The translations under genes were made by a program, and so were the position numbers. DNA of 64,000 bases from Adineta ricciae (taxonomy: Eukaryota > Rotifera > Eurotatoria > Adinetida > Adinetidae), in assembly GCA_905250025.1 (NCBI GenBank), contig CAJNOJ010000168.1:168008-232007 (forward strand), read 5' to 3'. The notes below the pieces were generated by a model that was given only the letters and a program-made list of their open reading frames with translations, had not been told where the DNA came from and made no database searches. Each line of letters opens with the position of its first letter. Position 1 is the first letter of the stretch. Shown here piece after piece: positions 16,791 to 33,578 of the stretch.

Positions 16791-18035
16791 TTAAATGGGA
16801 TTCTGTGAAAAATATTGAGTTAATGCTTCTCTTGTTGCTATTGAAGCTGTTGTTTGTGTAGCACATGTTGGTTTTCGATAAATGGTTTCGCCAATGTCCC
16901 AATCGATTTCAACAGAATCTTGAGCATCGATACAAATATTGTGTAATATACACGTAGCTTTTATGATAGTTTTAACATTTGTAATATCATATTCCATTTT
17001 TTTATGAATACTTCGAAAACGATTTTTTAAATGACCAAAAGCTCTTTCAATTGAACAACGACAATGGCTTAGACGGTAATTAAAGACAGATTGATCGCGT
17101 GGCATGTCATATCGTTCGGTATATGGCTTCATTAGATATTTGCTCAATGGAAATGCTGAATCAGCAATAATATGAGATTGAATACGTGTATTATTAATTG
17201 TTATATAATTTTGAGTATAAATGTTTCCTTGCAGAAGTTCATATAAAGACGATCTGCTATAGACATTAGCGTCGTTGCACCGGCCAGGTGCACCGACATT
17301 TACGTATGTAAATTTTAAAGAAGAGTCAACAGCTGCCAATAAAATAATAGAGTGGTGTTTTTTATAATTATAATAGTCTGGTTCAAATCCAATTGGAGGT
17401 TCAATAGCAATATGCGTTCCATCAAGAGCGCCTAAACACATCGGATAGTTAAATTTCTTCAAAAAAGCATCAGTGGTAGCCTTTATTTCTTGTTGTGTGG
17501 TTGGAAATTTAATGAGACAATGAAAATATAATTCAACAATAACATAACAGAAATCGTGCAAGATATTGGCAGCTGAACATTTTCCAATACCGAATAGATG
17601 ACCAATTGTTCTTAATTCACCTGTAGTACCCAATAAATATAACGCGCACGCAATTCGTTTATCTACTGGGATAGCTAAGCGCAACACGGTATCTTCTTTT
17701 TTTACATATTTCCCGATTCGATCCACAAGTTGTGCAAAAGTTGAACGTTGTATTCGAAAATTGTCTTTGAATTGCTTCTCTGTCATATTGGGAACAATAT
17801 CAGACCACCATTCGCCACTTTTTGGATAAGACCAAACTGCTCGACGATGAGTATTTAGTGATTGATCAATAAGAAAATTTAAATTGAATACAAGGATATT
17901 TCTGAGTAACAATGCACGACGTTTTTTCACTCGTTGGTGTTGTAATTCACTATTAATGTTAACAATTTGACGTTTTAAATTTTTCTTTTTAATTAAATAT
18001 GAATGTAAAGCACCGAGGAACATTACTTTATCCAT
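16791..18035 (-). CDS. PIF/Harbinger transposase (DDE_Tnp_4, HARBI1-like)
   Basis: A single uninterrupted 414-residue frame. It has the Harbinger transposase layout: an N-terminal helical region with a helix-turn-helix-like segment around 120-175 (RIACALYLLGTTGELRTIG), then the catalytic core with D in CLGALDGTHIAIEPP, GAPGRCNDANVY, D in IIADSAFPL and E in CRCSIERAFGHLKNRFR. These are the expected positions of the DDE triad, so the protein is potentially active. Harbinger transposases cut at terminal repeats and normally need a second Myb-like protein encoded by the same element for nuclear import and DNA binding; that gene lies just upstream on the same strand. No frameshift or stop is present. 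Confidence 0.93.
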   Translation of the reverse strand: MDKVMFLGALHSYLIKKKNLKRQIVNINSELQHQRVKKRRALLLRNILVFNLNFLIDQSLNTHRRAVWSYPKSGEWWSDIVPNMTEKQFKDNFRIQRSTFAQLVDRIGKYVKKEDTVLRLAIPVDKRIACALYLLGTTGELRTIGHLFGIGKCSAANILHDFCYVIVELYFHCLIKFPTTQQEIKATTDAFLKKFNYPMCLGALDGTHIAIEPPIGFEPDYYNYKKHHSIILLAAVDSSLKFTYVNVGAPGRCNDANVYSRSSLYELLQGNIYTQNYITINNTRIQSHIIADSAFPLSKYLMKPYTERYDMPRDQSVFNYRLSHCRCSIERAFGHLKNRFRSIHKKMEYDITNVKTIIKATCILHNICIDAQDSVEIDWDIGETIYRKPTCATQTTASIATREALTQYFSQNPI

Positions 18036-18553
18036 AATTTGTCGAAGGAAAAATCTTGTGTTTTGAATTTGTATGTAAAAAATACACAGATTAGTATTTA
18101 TCTATAATGAAATCTTCCATAGACTATGTGAGTTTTTTCAATTTTAACAGAGTACAGACATCGGAATAATAAACATTATTCTTTATGAACAGAATCTTCT
18201 ATGCAATTGATGAACAAATTTTTACCATGATTAGCACAAACGTACAATTTATTTTCTTATAACATTAATTCTAATTCTAGGATTTATCACAATATTTTCA
18301 ATTAACAGAATTACATGAGTAAAATCAGAAAATATTACATTAGCATATAGACTAGAACAGCTTTAGCATCATATATATACGTTGACCGAAAGTCATTTAT
18401 ACTGAACAGAAATAAAATGTTGAAAGAATATAGAAAAAATATAAATCATAAATTGATTTCAATATATATATATCACATTTAATATTTGGTCAACAACATT
18501 AACAATTATTAATACAAACATTCATGAACATAAAAGAAATCATATAAGAATAT
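18036..18553. other. spacer between the two Harbinger genes
   Basis: AT-rich, non-coding, with a short (TA) run near 18466. It would hold the transposase promoter. Nothing else is seen. Confidence 0.4.
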
Positions 18554-20570: not shown

Positions 20571-20912
20571 ATGTCATTTGATTGGAGGATTAAGTTTAAT
20601 ACGCTCTGAAAAGCGCATTAAATACGTATTAAACTTTTGACCAATCAAGTTCTTTAATTCAGTATTAAATTTCATAGTGGAGACAAGGCCTATGGATATG
20701 TATATTTTATATAAGGAAGCATAGAGACACGTGCTTTTTCCGAGATCAACACAAAAAATAATAATAATCAGACAAGTACAGAAGATATCTTNATGTCATT
20801 TGATTGGAGGATTAAGTTTAATACGCTCTGAAAAGCGCATTAAATACGTATTAAACTTTTGACCAATCAAGTTCTTTAATTCAGTATTAAATTTCATAGT
20901 GGAGACAAGGCC
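20571..20912. other. assembly join at N 20792: element end repeated, then different flanks
   Basis: Sequence after the N (20793) restarts exactly 221 bp upstream, at 20571, but matches only through 20690/20912 (120 bp, plus one shared t). After the Harbinger terminus GGCC the first copy continues TATGGATATG and the second TTAGTATGCT. The joined contigs therefore carry two different sequences next to the same transposon end, either alleles or two insertions. Confidence 0.75.
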
Positions 20913-21292
20913 TTAGTATGCTCTGAAATTCAGACGAAGTTTATATTGGCTACTGGACATGCAATCACAAGGCAGATGAAACTAGCGCCATGCTGTAAAT
21001 TAATTGGTGAGGTAAGTAGGCGACATCTCTCCAACTTGGAGGTCGTTCTTTATTTACTATTGGTGGTTTATATATTCAACATGAAAAGGTAAATAAACAA
21101 AACATCCACCTTGCCTTTCGTCTACTGAGTTCTACTGGACTTTCTTTTTCTAGGATATTGTTCGTTTAAATCTTACTATTCTTAATTGTGATGACATTTT
21201 TCAATTTATAAGATAGGTTTTCAATGAATACAATGACGTTCGTGTTTCTGTTGTAGTTGATATTGAACGATATATTGCTAAAGTTGTATCAG
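20691..21292. other. flank of the transposon and 5' region of the GART-like gene
   Basis: Contains the join at 20792 and about 380 bp of spacer. TTGTAG at 21251-21256 could be the end of a 5' UTR intron of the next gene. No other gene is seen. Confidence 0.4.
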
Positions 21293-24200
21293 ATGTCGCA
21301 GGCGAACAACCGTGGTGGCGGCAACAAGCGGTCGCGTATCTCTTCATCAGGCGCCTATCGTCAGCGCGAGAACCAGTCGACATCGTCGTCGACAAATGTC
21401 GCTCAAACTCAATCGGGTTTAATTATTGATAATGAAACTGAACAATCATCCGAAGGAATCAAAGAGCAATTGAACAGTGTTGAAGATATCATCACACAAC
21501 CTATTATTGAAGTTCCAACCAAACGTTTATTGCACTTAAAAGAACTTGGTGGAAATCTTTTTGTCTCATCATCAACAAAAATCTATTCGAAAACATTACA
21601 AAAACTATTCGATCGAGTCCTATTTACGAAATCATTAAACAATGACGTGAATACAGCACCATCTGATTTGCGCGTTTTCGAACGTGTTTTAGCACGTTCC
21701 GATGACAACGACGCTTATTCGACATGCACATCATTGGCACAACCAGTACCAGCGACAATACTTGTGCTTGGCTCTACTGCATGCGAACATGCGCTTGTAT
21801 GGAAATTACTACAGCGAAGAAATTTCAAAATTTTTATATCACCTGGTAATAGTGGCACAACAATCGATCAATCAACCGGAACAATTTCGACAGTTTTCCA
21901 AAACGAAAAAGATCTTTTGGAATATGTCGATACCAAACAAATTGACCTAGTTATATCGTTAAATAAGACATTTTACTTTGAAGAACTTGAAGCACGCCTT
22001 TGCGAACATGGCTTACATTACTTAGGATGTTCTGTTGATACATTAGTATTGACTGATAATCAATTAAATGCCAAACAATTTATGAGTAAACATAAAATTC
22101 CCACATTAGAGTGGACACATTGTTTGAATGAAGAAGATGCTCGGTCGTTTATCAATAAGTAAGCATATCGAAGACAGTAAAGATTTAGTAAACTTCCTTC
22201 CTCTCCATTAGATCTCCAAATCAACAGCAATGGATTATTCGGGCAACACATGGTAATGGTATAATCAACTGTAAAAGTCCAGACGAGGCAATGCAAACAA
22301 TCAAAGCTGTTTTCGAAGTAAAAATGGAACAAACAAGCTTGAACTCGGATCGATCAACTGATTTGTCTGTTTTCTAGGATCATATTTTTGGTAAACTAAA
22401 TCAATCTGTCGTCGTCGAGCATGGTTATTCAGCAGACGATCATCAAGTTTGTGTTTTATACATTGTAAGTGACGGCGATGGTGATTATACTCAGTTACCA
22501 ATAATACAATCTGATCCATTACGAATGGGTGCTTATGGTCCATGTCCATATTTAACATCGAAACAATTATCCTATGTTCGTCGTCGTATTGTTGAACGTA
22601 CACTTCGATGTTCACCAACGATTCGTCATTTGTTTGGTTTTCGTTTATTGATTCAAGGATCGAATTACAATCAAGTCTGTCTACTTGACTATGTGTCCAC
22701 ATTTGAAGAACCCGAAGCAGAGATTATCTTGTCATTATGCGAACCCGATGTGCTTCTTCAATACGCACTAGATCTACCGTCGGTTCCGATCATACCTTTG
22801 ACAAGCAAAAAACGTCGTGTTCACTGTGTAAATACAACTATAACGTCAACGAAATCGTCTTTAACTATTTCGAACAAAGTTCTATCGACCGCAACGAAAA
22901 ATAACAAAGTGAAAATCTTTCACAATCAGACAGATGTTAATGTTAATAATAATGGAACAGGTGAAACAAATTTCATAACAACAAGCGGTGAACGAATCTT
23001 CAACGTACTTGGTTATGGTTCGACCTTACAGGAAGCACAAATTCAATCGGTACTTGCTTGCGAATATATCAAACAGCATGCTAATGTTGACGATCTTCTG
23101 TTTAAATCCGATGTTGGTGCACAAGCGATTGAATGGTATAAGACGCGTGTTAATCGCAATCACTCGTCAACTGGTGGTTTAACGAATGGCAAAAAGAAGA
23201 AGGTGAAAAAGAAAATCTCGCTCCTATCAGGATCGAATAAACGAAATCGTAATTCGGCAAATCGTCGTCGTAACACGAAAAATTCCGAACAAGACAAAGG
23301 CAATTATAATGAAGAGAATGAAACTAGTGATGATAATGATGAGGATGATGATGATGATGAAGACGAAGACGACGACGCTGAACCAATGGATTTCGAACGA
23401 GCATTTGGCACCGTATCCGACATGCCGAAATTGGAACATATGGATATCTATCAAAATAATGGTACATTCGATGATCATAATGTTCATGAAGGTGAAACAT
23501 ATTTTGATTTGTCAAGCAAAATCGATCTGAAAACCTATAAGCAACCTGTTCTCGTATCGTCAACAATCAATTTGAATCCATTAGCAGCATTATTTAATTT
23601 AAATGATAGCGATATGAGTGATTGTCAAACTGTTTTCGAATATCTTGGTCACGAACTAACTGTTCGATGTGCGAATGATCTTGTTGGTGCTCGTACACTT
23701 TACATTCAATGTTACTCTTCACCAATATCATCACGTCGTTCAATTCAACGTTTCTATCAAGGAATCGAACAAGCATGTCAACAACTTGATTGTACACTTC
23801 TCAAAACGACCAGTTCTGCTATATCATCATCATCGTTCAGTTCATTATGTACAGGTCTATGTGATAGAGAATTTACTACACTGAATAATACAAGCCATCC
23901 AACGATTAACGAAGGTGATTTCTTAGTGGCCATTCGAAGTAGTTCGGGCACAGTTAATACGCAAGGCTATGTACAGTTAAAAGAGTTATTCCAAAAGAAA
24001 AATATTCATTTGAACGATACGGTACCTTTTCGAACTGCTGATGGTGAAGAAGAGTCATTTTTCTCATTATTGCTACAAAAATCATCTGTGTTAGCATCAT
24101 CATTAGCTAAGACCATTGGTGAACTGATTAGAAATCGAACGATCAAAGCCGTTCGATATCTCAAAGGTATGTAGATTAGCTTTAGATTAATAAAAATCCT

Positions 24201-25569
24201 ATCTACTTCTTCATTTAGATATTGGTTTGGCTCGTATGATTGAATCTTTACTTGGTCCATTCAGATCAACATTGAATATTGACTTAAATGGCCAACAATG
24301 GCCTGTAATGCCACCACTTTTTACTTGGATCTATCAACATGTAAGATTAATCGTGCTTTTCTGCTCGTACAATTTGATTCTCTTCTTTTCAGAGTGGTTT
24401 TAGTCAAGATGAAATGTTCGAATATTTTAACTGTGGTGTCGACTATATACTTCTTGTTGATCATACAAAAATTACTGTCGAAGATCTTCTTCGTCATCTA
24501 ACTGAAACACATACTTCAAGTTTTTATCTAGGAACATTTGTGTCAATAAGTAAGTTGAAATTCGACATGATGTTTTATCTATATTTCGATGTTTTCTTCT
24601 TAGATCCGACTCCAACACGTAAACCAATTCGTACGCCACAACAACCAATTGTCGCTCCACCACAACCACGTACTGTTCAGTTGAAAAATATTTCTTTCAA
24701 ATATCCGAAACCATATCAAACAGCTGGCGCATTAACAAATAATAGTGCACCTGTCGTAATCAAAGATCGAATGAAACAACCGATTGCAAATGACAAAACA
24801 CGTTGTGCTGTACTTATCTCTAACAATGGTAAACCAATCTCGAAATAACATGACGATTTCTATATCTGCTCGTTTCTTTTAGACACTTCCTTACTTTCAC
24901 TTCTCGCTTATAGTACATCAACACTTGAATGTGCATTCGAGATCGTTCTTGTACTTTCAACAGTAGCTGGCCTATCGGATATTGCTCGCGTGAATGAATT
25001 ACATCCCTCCGTGGTTACTAAAGTGATTCAACCGAAGAAATACGCTGCTCGACATTACGATTTGGTAAATAGTTCATTGAATTCCTTTCAGTGGATAGAA
25101 ACTTTATTTCTTTTTCATCGTTCAGGATCAAAAAGTGGACGACGAATTACAACTACATGGCTGTGAATTAGTTATTCTCGATCGTTACACATGTCGTTTA
25201 TCACATTCGTTTATTATGGCTTGGCGTGGACGTTTGTTAAGTATCTATCCATCGTTGTTACCATCATTTCGTCATAGTAGTTCGCCCATTCGTGATGCTT
25301 TACAAACAGGTGTACGTATAACAGGTGTGACAGTTCATTTTATTGGTGAATCGGATACGGACAACGATGGACCCATCATTGCCCAGGAAAGTTTATCTGT
25401 AACACCGTTCGAAACGGAAATGCAATTGGAAAATCGTCTGCGTACACTCGAACAACAATTGTATCCGAAAGCAATTGATTTAGTGGCGTCAGGAAAGATT
25501 GTTTATCAGGGTAAACGACGCATGAGTAAAATCAATTCAACTACGTCAATTACGCCTTCATCTTATTAA
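21293..25569 (+). CDS. GARS-AIRS-GART-like protein with eroded active sites and a RAD21-like N-terminus
   Basis: Eight exons (21293-22158, 22212-22317, 22378-24166, 24219-24340, 24393-24549, 24604-24828, 24883-25064, 25126-25569) encode 1296 residues without breaks; animal GART is about 1010. Domain order is that of the purine enzyme: GARS (about 153-590), AIRS (about 660-930), GART (about 1030-1280). Key motifs are gone. GARS has GSTACEHA for GSGGREHA and LDYVSTFEEPE for EFNCRFGDPE. AIRS lacks the DGVGTK loop. GART has S1188-I-Y1190 where the catalytic Asn and His of NIHPSLLP should be, although PSLLPS and the later Asp remain. Residues 56-118 match the RAD21 encoded at 30942-33578 (PTKRLLHLKELGG versus [13 protein letters not shown]). 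A KKKKVKKK stretch near 595 and an acidic run near 637-660 separate GARS from AIRS. It is probably a non-catalytic, perhaps nuclear, paralogue; its function is unknown. Confidence 0.85.
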
Positions 25570-26227: not shown

Positions 26228-26566
26228 ATGATCGTATCGATTCGTCTCAGCTTGCTATTGATCCTGATTCTAGCTATACTCGTTAGTCAAACGAACGGTA
26301 AGCTCATCTGAGAGAAAGATCGTCGATTCGGGGAAAATCAACTTCGAATACTTTTTCTAGGTTTCCTGTTTGGCCAGTGGTGTTTAGGTGCGCATCAAGA
26401 ATATTTAAGATGTGGTTCCGCCTGTCCACTTTCATGTGCTGATGTTCGATATGCAAGATATTTTAAACCATGCACGTATCAATGTGTTCAAGGCTGTTTC
26501 TGTAAACGTGGTTATGCGCGTCGTACTCATTCGAAAAGTCAGTGCATCCCTGACTGGCGTTGTTAA
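26228..26566 (+). CDS. small secreted cysteine-rich protein, TIL-type
   Basis: Two exons, 26228-26297 and 26361-26566, give 91 residues. Residues 1-23 form a strongly hydrophobic signal peptide ending near QTNG. The mature part has ten cysteines with the spacing of a trypsin-inhibitor-like (TIL) domain: WC...RCGSACPLSC...PCTYQCVQGCFCKRGY...QCIPDWRC. The CxCxxGY core is the clearest sign. TIL proteins are extracellular serine-protease inhibitors, or structural modules. The reactive loop cannot be aligned with confidence, so the inhibitor role is inferred. The intron is 63 bp and the start is the only Met before the signal peptide. Confidence 0.78.
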
Positions 26567-27337
26567 TGAAATTAATAATCTAGCATTGGAATGTATTTTT
26601 TTGTACATATGGGTAAATAAAATATGATTAGTCAGAATACTGTCTTAGATATAATACTAATAAAAAAAAGAAATGCTAATTAACTTTGTGTAAAAATAAT
26701 TTTGATAACATTGATTTACGTCAAATCGTAAGTGAACAATGGAGCTATCAAGGACGAAATGATTTACCTTGATCTAATACATTTAGTCAAATAGGACTAT
26801 GACGATTTTACAAAACCGGTTTTAGACAATACTGAAGAATGATATGCGTAATAATCATTCGATCGACTTTTGTTCGATAAGTAATCGATACGAAAAGCAA
26901 TAATACATTTATGAAACGATGCTTTTGTATGGATGGTTACTCTTCATAAATGTACTTAACGTTCAAAGGTTCATACTAATGCACGCTTTCGATTCTGTTT
27001 TTCTTCTCGATATACAAAGACACATATGTTTAAGATTTGACCTCGAAATCAATATGAACTTAGTTCAATAGCGTGTTAATGGATCGATTCGATTATCTGC
27101 GTATCGTACGACCATCAATAAGATAAGAGACATTATGTCGCTCGAGGGATGACTTTTTCGTTTCTTTCCGAAACAAAATCATCAGTTACATTAAACGATA
27201 GACGACGAGGAACATTCTCTACCGTTCTGTATATCGTTACGCTTCATGTTCGTGCGAATATAAATCCAGATTGTCTATTAACTGACAAGACATAAATCGT
27301 CGAATGTACCTTTCTTCTCACACACATCTCTAATATC
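26567..27337. other. intergenic, nothing recognised
   Basis: AT-rich spacer containing the 5' flank of the NOX5-like gene. No convincing frame and no repeat structure were seen. Confidence 0.4.
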
Positions 27338-30273
27338 ATGTCGAACACGGATGAAAGCCTGCACACGACTCTCTCGATGGATGCCTCCTCGCAGCCAGCG
27401 ATTATCAATACAGTAACTGTTGCCCTACCACAACAGCAGCCTCGTCCTCTAAAGCGTAAGATTAGTCATCAATCAACACCAGTGTTTTCTTCGTTTTTAC
27501 GAACACCCTCAGGAAGTAATGGTGGATTTTTCAACAAGTTCGTATTCTTGTCGAAAGAGTGTTCATTTTATTTGAGCGGATATTTATTGTTTCAGTTTAA
27601 TGCAACGAACCATTTCGAATCGTCAAAGAGCCGAAATTCAACTGCAAAGTTTACTTGATGAACCTGAAGAATCTCTACCGACATTCACACGTCGTGCCAG
27701 TGATCATTTACCAAACGAGAATCTACCATTAGAAGAAGTGTCCAAATTACTCAATACTCAAACGTTCGTCATTGAACGACTTGTTAATGCTCTCTATTCG
27801 TCTACCGATGATGATGATAGTATAAAGACTTTGAGCAAATGCGAAGTACGAAAGCTAACACGAGCACTGAATAGTACGATGGACGTTCGAGCTCTTCTGT
27901 TTTTCATGATGCTCGACGAAGATGGTGATCGTTATGTAACAAGTAATGAACTGGCATTTTTCTATGAGAAATATTTACAAGGCTTGAAAACATTCGATGC
28001 TAATCGTTTGCAAGAAGTTATCCAAGTGCTTCAGAAGAAGTTTCATCTCGATCAAGTAAAGAAGACAACTTAAATTGATATCGAAAAAGTACAATCGAAT
28101 GCATTTTTTTTAGAAACCTCGAATTGATTTCGAAGAATTCTATTCGATTGTATCCAAAGATGCGACACTGCTCGAATCTTTATCTCAATTCACTGTTCAT
28201 CCAACATGGTTTATCAAAACACCCAATAATTCAATGGTCAAACAAAGTAAACTTCAACGTTTTTTCAGTCATCACTGCCACCAACAAGTCATATACGAAG
28301 CACGAAAAAATAGACTAACAATAGACTATGTCAAGGATAATCTATCGAGTATCATTGTTTTCATTCTGTACATCTTGGTAAATCTTGCTTTGACCATCTA
28401 TGTTATCATTTATCGAATAACAGTGACCAGATCACATGCATTTGTTGTTGTTGCACGTATTGGTGGAATGTTGCTGAATTTCAATTGTGCACTCGTCATT
28501 ACACTGATGCTTAAACAAACAATATTGGTCATTCGTACGAATAGTTTTCTACGGAAGATCATTCCTGTTGATAACCATATTGACTTTCATAAAGTCGTCG
28601 GACGATTTATTGCCATCCTATCAATTGTACATACAATTGCACATATGGCCAACTTCGGAAGACTTACAGGTACGAATACTTAGCCCCAAGACGAAAGACC
28701 TTTTAATTTTTCAATATTTAGATCATTCCTGGGGAACTTACATGGTACGTTTATTTGTCTTCTCTATAGAACGACCATATCGGCTTCTTTAGTTTGCGAC
28801 AAGACCTAATCTAGGTTGGGTAGGGGGCCTTGCGCCATTGACTGGTGTTATCTTATGTGTCATCCTTGCTGTCATTGTTATTTGTTCCATGCAATGGATT
28901 CGTCGTGGTGGTCATTTTCAAGTAATTTATCTTCTGTTACCTTCAATTCTAACTGTTCTTTTATACAGATTTTCTATTGGACACATTTACTGTACTTTCC
29001 ATTTTTCATTCTTCTTATTCTGCATGCAGGAAACTTTTGGGTATGTTCAACATGGGTCTACGCGCGGAACTTTACATCTGACTTTTTTTTAGAAATGGAT
29101 CGTGGGCCCATTATCTCTTTTCCTGTTGGAAAAAACCTATTCAGTTTTAACAAGATATTCTGTTCGAAGTGGCCGCACTTATCTTCATTCAGCAACTATC
29201 GAACAGTCGAATGTTATTAGTTTGAATATACATCGGCCAAAAAATTTCACGTATGTTCTACTCGGCGATGCTCTTCTTCAGTTTTCTTGTGTGTGACTTC
29301 TAGTTTTAAACCAGGTGATTATATAAGTATCAATTTACCACGTGTTGCACTCTACGAATTCCATCCATTTACGATCAGTAGTGCACCTGAAGAAATGGGC
29401 AATCTTCGCGTACATATCCAAGCTGTTGGCAATTGGACTAAACAGGTTTATCAACGTTTCAAAGAAATGTCCGAAGATGACGCTCGAGAAAATCATGTCA
29501 AAGTTTACCGTGCTGATCTCCATCCCGAACAATCGGTTGCAGATCTTCAAGCTATCAACAAAGATCACTGTGGCGATGATGATGGCAGTGAAGTATATAC
29601 AGGAAAATGTCGAATGAAATTCAAAAAACGAGAGCCTGTCGTGATCAACGGACCTTATTCATCATGTGCTCGTTACATATTCGACTGTAAACATGTTGTT
29701 TTGATTGGTGGTGGTATTGGTATTACACCATACGCATCGATATTATCAAGTCTCATGGCGCAGTTTCGTGCATCGCGTGTTGTTTGTAAATACTGTAATG
29801 GAATCAATTACAATTCCAAAGGACTTGTCGAAAATCATCGTCTGAAGAAAGTCGATTTTATTTGGGTGAATCGAGACCAGAAGAATTTTGAATGGTTCCT
29901 CAATCTTCTTCGTCAATTTGAACAAGAACAGGAATATTATCTAGCGTCGAATTCGAATGAAAAGCGTTTTCTTGACATTCATTTATATTTTACAGAAATC
30001 AAGCATGATGAGAACATTGGTAATGTTCCATTAGATCTAGTGACTAAAATCTGGGCTCAAGTAGCTGGACAAGATATATTTACCAGTTTAAAATCGAAAA
30101 CACATATCGGTCGACCGAAATGGGAAGATTTGTTTAGTAATTTAATTTCAGGCGAAAATGCCTCGACAGCAAATGATGTTGATGTTTTCTTCTGTGGACC
30201 GTCAACTATGGCTCAGACAATTCGAAATCATTGTGCTACATTTCGATTTCGATTTTACGAAGAAAAATTTTGA
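27338..30273 (+). CDS. NOX5: NADPH oxidase, NOX5-like (EF-hand)
   Basis: Eight exons (27338-27537, 27596-28055, 28114-28669, 28722-28744, 28793-28921, 28969-29040, 29093-29250, 29304-30273) encode 855 residues. Order: a disordered N-terminus, an EF-hand region with one canonical loop DEDGDRYVTSNE near 173-184, six membrane helices with heme histidines in DFHKVVGRFIAIL...HTIAHMANF and FYWTHLLYF...HAGNF, the FAD motif HPFTISSAPE near 552, the NADPH motif GGGIGITPYASIL near 667, and the terminal FYEEKF. This is a calcium-controlled flavocytochrome that passes electrons from NADPH across the membrane to oxygen, making superoxide. The linker between the FAD and NADPH sites is long and acidic (around 590-640). 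Exon 4 is only 23 bp. Other EF loops are degenerate, so calcium control may differ from human NOX5. Confidence 0.93.
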
Positions 30274-30941: not shown

Positions 30942-33578
30942 TCATCTTCCGCCGCTGGATATATACTGATGGAAATTCACACCCGGTGTTACTGTTATGT
31001 CTCCGAATGCTTCACTTTGTTCAACGTCAACAGCTTGCAATTTTTTTAATACTAATAGCGTATAAAATTTCTGTGCAGTTAATTTTCGTGTATGATAATT
31101 TGGGTTGCCCGACGAAAGATGATCGTGAAACGAAAGTGCGTCTACTGAATCGAAAGAACGTTCGAAAGCATTAAGCATGATTTTTGCACGACGATTCAAC
31201 TTCTTGCCAGATTCAAAATCCTAAAAGAGAGAACAGCGGTTTTTTCTACTAATCAGAGATTTTTTTCTGGAAATAAATTACGTACTTCTTGAGCGGTTGT
31301 CGTTTGTCCATGTTCTTCTTCGTCATCGTCTTGCTCATCCTGATTTTCTTTCAAATGTCCCATTCCTTTCTTACGTCGTGCACTACCGGGTGTGCGTGAG
31401 GGCGATGGAGGTAGCTGATTCAATTCATGAACTTTTCGTCCACTCTTTCTCGTTGGTGACATGGGCGCAGGCATAACATCCATGAGATTATCCATAGATG
31501 TTGTCATCGGAGGGAAAAATAAGGAATCACCCGGTAGAATCGATTCCATACGTTGCCGTTTATCGATGTTCGATTCGTTTCCCGGGGATAATCCACGTTT
31601 TCTTGAGCGATTGGGTGAATCATAGCCTAGCACTTCTAGGTAATGATGATGTGAAGCACGCATTTGTTCAATGGATGACTCGTCTCTGTCACGTTCAAGT
31701 TGTTCCATGGCAAGATCATGTTGAATTTGATAATTATCCGGCGGCATTTGATCCAATGCTTTTGTGGTTAAATTGCGTGAAAATAACTATGAAAGATGAA
31801 GCCATGAAAGAAACATTCGTTGGTCAACGAATTTGTTTTACCTGTTGCAAAGTTTTTGAAAATACACATGTAGCACTGAGAGAGAACAGCTTTTCTATTC
31901 CACCGGTTTCTTTCAAGTGCATTAAGCGACGCGTCGGCGGTGCTAATTCGAGTACACCAACAATATCTGTTGTATCACTGAGCTGCGTTTTCATTGATGT
32001 ACTGTCAATTTCTTTAACTTCATCAATAACTAGTTTCCGCTTGCGTTTGGCTGCTTGCCGATTTGCTACAGGTGTTTGCGCTATTCAGCAAAAGAAAACG
32101 AAGGTAAGAAAATTCACATTTAAAGAGTTCGTCGATTCCCACCTGATGTTAAAATAGGTGGTAGAACAAATTCATCCGAAACGTTAGATAGAAGTGTTGT
32201 ATCATCAACACCTGGAATGTGTTGGATGGTTTGATTGTCGCCTTCAACATCCATACGATTATCGCCATCATCTGAAGACGTACACAGTTTTGAGAAAATC
32301 TCTTCATTCTTATTCTTCGTCATACCTTGATTTCGTTCACCAGCTGGAGCTGCATGATCATTAAGTGTGGGTATGGCAGGATCATTGTCATCATCTGCAA
32401 ATAAATGATATACGTATCTATGTATTGTTCGAAGTTGTAGCTTGACTTACGATGAAATGGTGACATGACATGATCGTAATGACTTTTACCATTAGCTAAA
32501 TCTGAATTATCATCGCCGATACCAATCACTGAGCTAGGTCCAGCAACTAAAAGGTAGAAAACCATTCTCCCTTAATCTGTAAATCAAATTACTGAACGTA
32601 TAATGGTTCTTCTCCTAGGGCTATTCTATAGAACTGATTCATTGTAGAGTTTTGCAAATGCCTTATCTGATCTGATTAGATTATTTCTCTTTAATTCACA
32701 ATACGTACAATCTCCAAAACCATCCAATGCAAATGGATCATCACCGAATGGTCGAGCAATACTTTGTTTTTTGCGCACAGTTGTATCTAGAAAGGTAAAA
32801 TCGGCGAAAAATTCGAATTTTCAGCATGGTTTCTCCTACCATCTAAATCTAGATTTGAATTTTGTGCATTCAAATGTACTGATGGTTGAAGTTTACGAAA
32901 GAATTCAGGTTCGTCGAGTCCGTTAGCATCACCTAAAAGACAGAAAACTGTCATGAATCACTGTTCATCTTCTTTAGTTTATCCCTACCAAAATCATCAT
33001 CCATTGGCATAGGCACACTGATAAAATCTTCCTTCAATGTGATTTCTTCTGCACGTGCTTGATGCATTTGAAACCGAGTTGGATCATCGATATAACTAAA
33101 TCGAGTGGAAAATCAATTACACTGATCTTTATCCGGTCATATCTTTGTTTCGATATAATAAGCATGAAACTTACTCTATGTTAAGATCGATTAGATCAAA
33201 ATCGTGAAAATTTTCTGGTAAAGTTATTGCAGCAATTGAAACTTCTCGGGTGTCGGGGTCGACATTGACACTATGTGTATTTGATCCTTCAATCCCAACA
33301 ACTCCCGGTCGAAACGCCATTTTAATTTTAATAAACGCTTCATTGCAATCCGCTAATAAGTATTTCGTTTTCCGTGAGTAGATTCGTACAACTCCAAGTA
33401 ATAAATGTCCTTTCGTACGTAATGCAAGTTTTAGACATGGTTCGAGAATCGATTCGCAACTAAGTCGAATATCTGTTTCGAAAATTTGTGCTTTAGTTAA
33501 TTTTTTATCCCAATGTGCCGCAAGCCATAGACGAGCTAAGGGACCACGTTTGGTCAATATCGCATGTGTATAAAACAT
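30942..33578 (-). CDS. RAD21: cohesin kleisin RAD21/SCC1
   Basis: Nine exons (33578-33175, 33095-32989, 32932-32840, 32786-32709, 32546-32451, 32394-32143, 32080-31842, 31786-31286, 31220-30942) encode 682 residues. The N-terminus is the kleisin SMC3-binding domain: [62 protein letters not shown]. The middle has [16 protein letters not shown] and [20 protein letters not shown] (about 390-410), the region that contacts SA/STAG in known RAD21. The C-terminal winged helix ([30 protein letters not shown]) binds SMC1. RAD21 closes the cohesin ring that holds sister chromatids. An acidic and Ser/Pro-rich region lies between; separase sites were not identified. It is head-to-head with KLHDC4. Confidence 0.95.

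Follow-up and report, generated by a model that had tools for sequence, protein, structure and literature searches.

The window analysed here is a 64,000-nucleotide stretch of Adineta ricciae contig CAJNOJ010000168.1, and it carries on its forward strand, at 21293-25569, a gene designated GARTL whose eight exons (21293-22158, 22212-22317, 22378-24166, 24219-24340, 24393-24549, 24604-24828, 24883-25064 and 25126-25569) have GT-AG borders and join into an open spliced frame of 1296 amino acids. Relatives recovered by a protein search have the same length. One of them, P0006, reads uninterrupted for 1285 amino acids from a contig of 4212 bases, and the gene in the window spans 4277 bases including 386 intron bases, which suggests that P0006 represents a spliced transcript. 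Exon 1, an open frame, encodes a segment resembling the cohesin subunit RAD21 and then, without an intervening intron, the start of a GARS domain. Since both parts lie in this one exon, the in-frame fusion to the N-terminus of a GART-like protein that the first-pass annotation had described is confirmed. The RAD21-like segment, which by homology is a putative STAG-binding segment, comprises residues 37-119 (21401..21649) and is recovered in phmmer, profile, HMM-HMM and shuffle comparisons. Conservation within the protein is highest over residues 56-150 (21461..21742), of which residues 120-150 are conserved and have no RAD21 match.

Downstream on the same strand follow a GARS-like domain (residues about 151-576; 21743..23133), for which Pfam GARS_N and GARS_A score above and GARS_C below cut-off and which matches human GARS in the PDB at 6.5e-24; a variable charged linker, first basic and then acidic (residues 577-700; 23134..23505); an AIRS-like domain encoded by exons 3-5 (residues about 697-1012; 23494..24545) that matches human AIRS at 1.6e-16; and a formyltransferase (GART/PurN-like) domain encoded by exons 6-8 (residues 1079-1280; 24798..25518), with a Pfam Formyl_trans_N match of 8.9e-30 and a match to human GART of 1.1e-26. 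The Pfam AIRS model has no match in the GARTL of the window and does match the Didymodactylos GARTL. GARTL has the domain order and the folds of trifunctional GART (GARS-AIRS-GART). That enzyme differs in having neither the extra N-terminus nor the charged linker, and the catalytic motifs of its three domains are all broken in GARTL. The predicted structure of exon 1 is poor (mean pLDDT 48.7, with residues 1-150 below 50), and the RAD21-like segment by itself is predicted to be unfolded, helices being suggested at low confidence at 53-61, 78-83 and 100-106. For the relative P0017, prediction gave a good GARS domain, with human GARS as its best PDB match, and a weak remainder. The otherwise variable acidic linker (23134-23505, forward strand) contains a string, EPMDF, that is kept in the window and in P0001-P0017, and the linker of P0018 keeps the EPM of this string.

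The similarity of the N-terminal segment to RAD21 was found by several comparisons. When GARTL residues 1-151 were compared with PDB sequences by phmmer, all eight distinct matches up to E=10 were RAD21, one of them a RAD21-separase chain, and the best (E=3e-7) aligned GARTL 37-110 with human RAD21 318-393, a region that covers the STAG-binding segment of the human protein. The first-pass annotation had aligned residues 56-118 with the middle of RAD21 and had identified that part as the one contacting SA/STAG; both statements hold, the motifs it quoted are correct, and the similarity is slightly longer than it had stated, extending over residues 37-119. A profile built from eight GARTL segments gave ten matches up to E=10, of which the best nine were RAD21 (from 9.9e-9 for the best to 0.8 for the ninth) and the tenth was an unrelated protein (E=3.4). 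The HMM-HMM comparison that had been proposed as a check on the claim was significant, at 98.7% and E=1.8e-16 over 77 columns with 44% identity, when the GARTL segments were set against 20 RAD21s, eight from bdelloids and twelve from elsewhere. Against an HMM made from 30 RAD21 segments of non-bdelloid origin, GARTL 1-151 scored 53.5 bits, and the best of 5000 shuffles (3796 scored) reached 7.7 bits.

Judged by sequence homology, then, GARTL has in common with the alpha-kleisin RAD21/SCC1 the STAG-binding middle segment. The two differ at their ends: the Pfam domains Rad21_Rec8_N (N-terminal, SMC3-binding) and Rad21_Rec8 (the C-terminal, SMC1-binding winged helix) are both found in the allelic bdelloid RAD21 P0022, whereas neither was found in GARTL up to E=1. 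The conserved core common to GARTL and RAD21 is PT..L...KE.GG..LF, together with an L/F helix face. According to the available text of PMC3709894, helix 383-392 of human RAD21 is required for SA1/2 binding, the substitutions L385A/F389A reduce that binding, and L385A/F389A/T390A abrogates SA2 binding. The position equivalent to L385 is leucine in all 18 GARTL proteins. The F389 equivalent is phenylalanine in 11 of the 18 and isoleucine in seven, isoleucine being the commonest residue at this position in bdelloid RAD21 (10 of 15 rows) and present in none of the 30 non-bdelloid RAD21 rows. The T390 equivalent is aspartate in 18 of 18; threonine itself occupies position 390 in merely five of the 30 non-bdelloid rows. 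Two residues that follow the conserved GG are missing in GARTL. The STAG-binding motif thus retains its main features, with some changes.

The protein closest to GARTL is also from Adineta ricciae (98%). A search with the whole protein found 21 proteins, 18 with the segment, the other three being an ordinary frog enzyme and two ordinary yeast enzymes. Eleven of the 18 carriers are named Adineta or Rotaria, one is named Didymodactylos and six are environmental. On the recurrence of the fusion in other rotifers, which the first-pass annotation had raised, a search with the segment region returned the same 18 and no others among 505 candidates, and no carrier was named outside the bdelloids, in a search that needs shared five-residue words and a length window and so gives no proof of absence from monogononts. 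Among 13 sequences (P0001-P0012 and the window), invariant columns make up 75% of residues 56-150 and 69% of residues 37-110, compared with 36-48% of the GARS and AIRS stretches, 17% of the linker and 69% of the formyltransferase domain. The window and Didymodactylos proteins are 77% identical over residues 37-110 (53/69) and 46% identical over residues 151-400 (115/248). Over residues 37-150, the GARTL ohnologues have a dN of 0.098 and a saturated dS of 3.4, and the copies C168 (that in the window) and C310 show zero amino-acid changes at a dS of 0.17. The segment is real, old and strongly constrained, in agreement with the earlier view that it is an old copy kept at the protein level.

A RAD21 gene of nine exons and 682 amino acids, supported by its gene model and its relatives, lies about 10 kb away, with all its exons within 33578-30942 on the reverse strand (30942..33578), where the first-pass annotation had placed it; it probably represents the donor lineage of the segment. 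Its matching STAG-binding stretch (31742..32033, reverse strand) is interrupted by an intron (31787-31841) that GARTL lacks. Two further products are encoded between these genes, at 26312-30273 on the forward strand. One is small and has a TIL (trypsin-inhibitor-like) domain; the other is an oxidoreductase whose ferric-reductase domains, FAD-binding and NAD-binding, resemble those of NADPH oxidases. The genome holds three copies of GARTL, namely the one described here, C310 (99% over the query) and C14 (76%), and each of them has a RAD21 segment 9.5-10.4 kb off on the opposite strand. A. vaga has two copies of the pair, with GARTL/RAD21 locus tags 013567/013564 and 029544/029547, so that the numbers differ by three each time. 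Because the linkage is found in every copy, the two genes were probably already neighbours when the bdelloid genome duplicated.

The GARTL segment has a mean identity of 43% to bdelloid RAD21 and 37% to that of other animals, and glutamine at the L386 position is found in 18/18 GARTL proteins and 15/15 bdelloid RAD21s compared with 0/30 other RAD21 rows. A tree of the segment (83 columns) was built from 63 of 136 segments, comprising 18 GARTL rows, 15 of 16 bdelloid RAD21s (one duplicate was removed) and 30 others, taken as every third remaining distinct RAD21; P0038 and P0131 were left out as the motif is missing from them. It united the 18 GARTL rows as a single group with support of 100/100 and a long stem, and the position of that group among the RAD21s was not placed by these 83 columns. 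The simplest story would be that the segment was copied from the neighbouring RAD21, which we infer to be the donor.

In the enzymatic part of the protein there is a feature that the first-pass annotation had missed: its domains have lost the motifs that have catalytic roles in GARS, AIRS and the formyltransferase. In the window sequence and P0001-P0018 (19 sequences), the N and R of the GARS motif EFNCRFGDPE are kept in none, three residues are deleted from the GARS stretch KASGLAAGKGV in all, and the D, G and G of the AIRS motif DGVG are kept in none, with the last K of the motif kept in one. The formyltransferase His is replaced by Tyr in all 13 sequences that cover the site; the Asn is kept in nine of these 13, and the Asp is kept or lost according to the alignment. 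By these sequence criteria GARTL is a pseudoenzyme, with broken motifs in its GARS, AIRS and GART domains, although the kept Asn and the ambiguous Asp mean that it may retain a ligand-binding role. This corrects the phrase 'purine-enzyme scaffold' used in the first-pass annotation.

The remainder of the de novo purine pathway was searched for in the genome. A frog GART query matched eight places, six of which are GARTL exons, spread over the three loci, and the other two weak matches (E 0.04 and 0.10) to another formyltransferase locus, C227; with this query no canonical GART was detected besides the GARTL loci. Models of PFAS and ATIC gave zero matches each, in a draft genome searched exon by exon and with intronless prokaryotes as their controls. 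IMPDH, the sole control with introns, gave strong exon matches (best 8.6e-77). The GARS_A model gave no genome match and missed GARTL itself, so this null carries little weight. PAICS loci lie on C113 and C133. That on C113 (L022 1249-2952) is a single frame of 567 codons that matches human PAICS at 1.7e-55, and the frame on C133 is similar to it. The protein encoded on C113 has SAICAR-synthetase and AIR-carboxylase similarity, its SAHKGP loop is altered in the alignment, and it is probably, by its sequence, a second pseudoenzyme of the purine pathway. The missing genes, sought exon by exon in a draft genome, are suggestive, and de novo purine synthesis has probably been lost in bdelloids, with GART and PAICS surviving as apparent pseudoenzymes. 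An unexpected clue that follows is that bdelloids may rely on purine salvage. The KEGG purine metabolism map is broader than de novo synthesis. In the available text of PMC3499245, 'purine metabolism' is among the bdelloid KEGG pathways with foreign transcripts, which is possible evidence against the loss.

A RAD21 segment detached from its kleisin has a precedent in Drosophila UNO, part of the SNM-UNO-MNM system of homologue conjunction in male meiosis I. As described in the accessible portion of PMC9767379, UNO residues 289-364 resemble human RAD21 320-394, the same alpha-kleisin segment as in GARTL, and UNO, like GARTL judged by its sequence, carries this segment on an unrelated body without the SMC-binding ends. 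The two proteins differ in several respects. The segment lies near the C-terminus of UNO and at the N-terminus of a trifunctional pseudoenzyme in GARTL; the body of UNO is a small self-associating domain, whereas that of GARTL is a large and apparently dead enzyme; and UNO binds the STAG paralogue SNM (PMC9767379), whereas the genome carrying GARTL yielded ordinary STAG loci only (C85 and C232, with a third match, C590, below cut-off). UNO also contains a site for separase and a basic helix that binds DNA. The separase motif ExxR is not conserved in GARTL, 14 of the 18 proteins having zero ExxR. A less strict form, [DE]xxR, is retained in the acidic linker of the protein in the window and of P0001-P0017, and not in that of the Didymodactylos protein P0018. 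UNO-type separase control of GARTL was rejected because ExxR is not conserved.

The unrelated bodies of UNO and GARTL point to separate origins of their segments. By analogy, the binding of a STAG-family protein by the detached segment of UNO lends support to STAG binding by GARTL, for which the two STAG loci of the genome would supply candidate partners. A detached STAG-binding RAD21 segment is thus already known, and it is the body of GARTL that is very unusual. No title on a RAD21-GART fusion or on loss of the purine pathway in bdelloids was found among open-licence PMC papers, which is weak evidence of novelty, and the words cohesin, RAD21 and REC8 do not occur in the part of PMC6264785 that was available. 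The earlier opinion that the arrangement is undescribed may therefore stand for the fusion and fails, given UNO (PMC9767379), for the detached segment.

Our results suggest that GARTL is probably a pseudoenzyme that serves as a scaffold, binding STAG by means of a kleisin-derived peptide and lacking the SMC-binding ends. With the segment present and both of these ends absent, a STAG-binding adaptor without a ring function is the simplest prediction from the sequence, and STAG binding is directly testable. We infer STAG binding, the partner, the cellular role, the donor and the order of events as follows. In the bdelloid stem or earlier, the 5' end of GART would have received a copy of the STAG-binding segment of RAD21, whose probable source is the RAD21 gene still present some 10 kb off. 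De novo purine synthesis would have been lost and the three catalytic sites would have degenerated, with fold and segment both retained. GARTL would then bind STAG at the site used by RAD21 and, having no ring-closing ends, would tether STAG to anything held by the GART body, candidates being a second GARTL held through the AIRS fold, another protein as partner, or a ligand bound by the conserved formyltransferase fold. AIRS forms dimers, and self-association of GARTL would be expected by analogy with these.

A bolder proposal, which we consider doubtful, is that a bdelloid ancestor lost purine synthesis and then turned GART into a STAG-binding, self-associating linker of chromosomes, which would make it a second and independent case of the cohesin STAG interface being used by a non-kleisin, with a possible connection to non-reductional meiosis and the repair of chromosomes. 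The adaptor reading, if correct, would already make GARTL an instance of a metabolic enzyme that was released when its pathway disappeared and was remade into a protein associated with cohesin, in animals whose chromosome biology is known to be unusual. The parallel with UNO suggests that the RAD21 segment for STAG binding can be carried from protein to protein as a module.

Other readings of GARTL were weighed against the adaptor. One is that GARTL acts mainly as a decoy that withdraws STAG from RAD21 and so tunes the amount or loading of cohesin, the GART body being a stable carrier. A competitor would need exactly what is found, the STAG-binding part without either SMC-binding end, and the kept L385 equivalent is consistent with this; it would, however, have little need of a conserved body of 1150 residues, of which the formyltransferase domain is 69% invariant, and we regard this role as rather unlikely. 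It is also unlikely, in our judgement, that the segment no longer binds STAG and is conserved for another contact. Conservation beyond the RAD21 match to residue 150, the aspartate at the T390 position and the two residues missing after GG are what such a change of function might leave, but the segment has the core PT..L...KE.GG..LF and the L/F helix face that are known from RAD21.

That GARTL might be a working purine enzyme with an incidental cohesin tag is highly improbable, and on sequence the broken motifs led us to reject it. The kept domain order and folds and the formyltransferase Asn in nine of 13 sequences would suit an active enzyme, yet the GARS N and R and the AIRS DGVG are kept in 0/19, the formyltransferase His is Tyr in 13/13, and the adjoining pathway enzymes PFAS and ATIC were not found. 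Chance similarity, a gene-model error or an assembly artefact was rejected as having next to no probability, given a single exon, three genome loci, carriers in other genera, the phmmer, HMM-HMM and shuffle statistics, and the spliced transcript suggested by P0006.

Apart from these genes, the region upstream of GARTL contains two identical 121-base copies (20571-20691 and 20793-20913), 222 bases apart, with a single N near the second, possibly a short mobile-element or assembly feature. A transposase frame with a DDE_Tnp_4 domain (1.4e-34) lies at 16791-18098 on the reverse strand.
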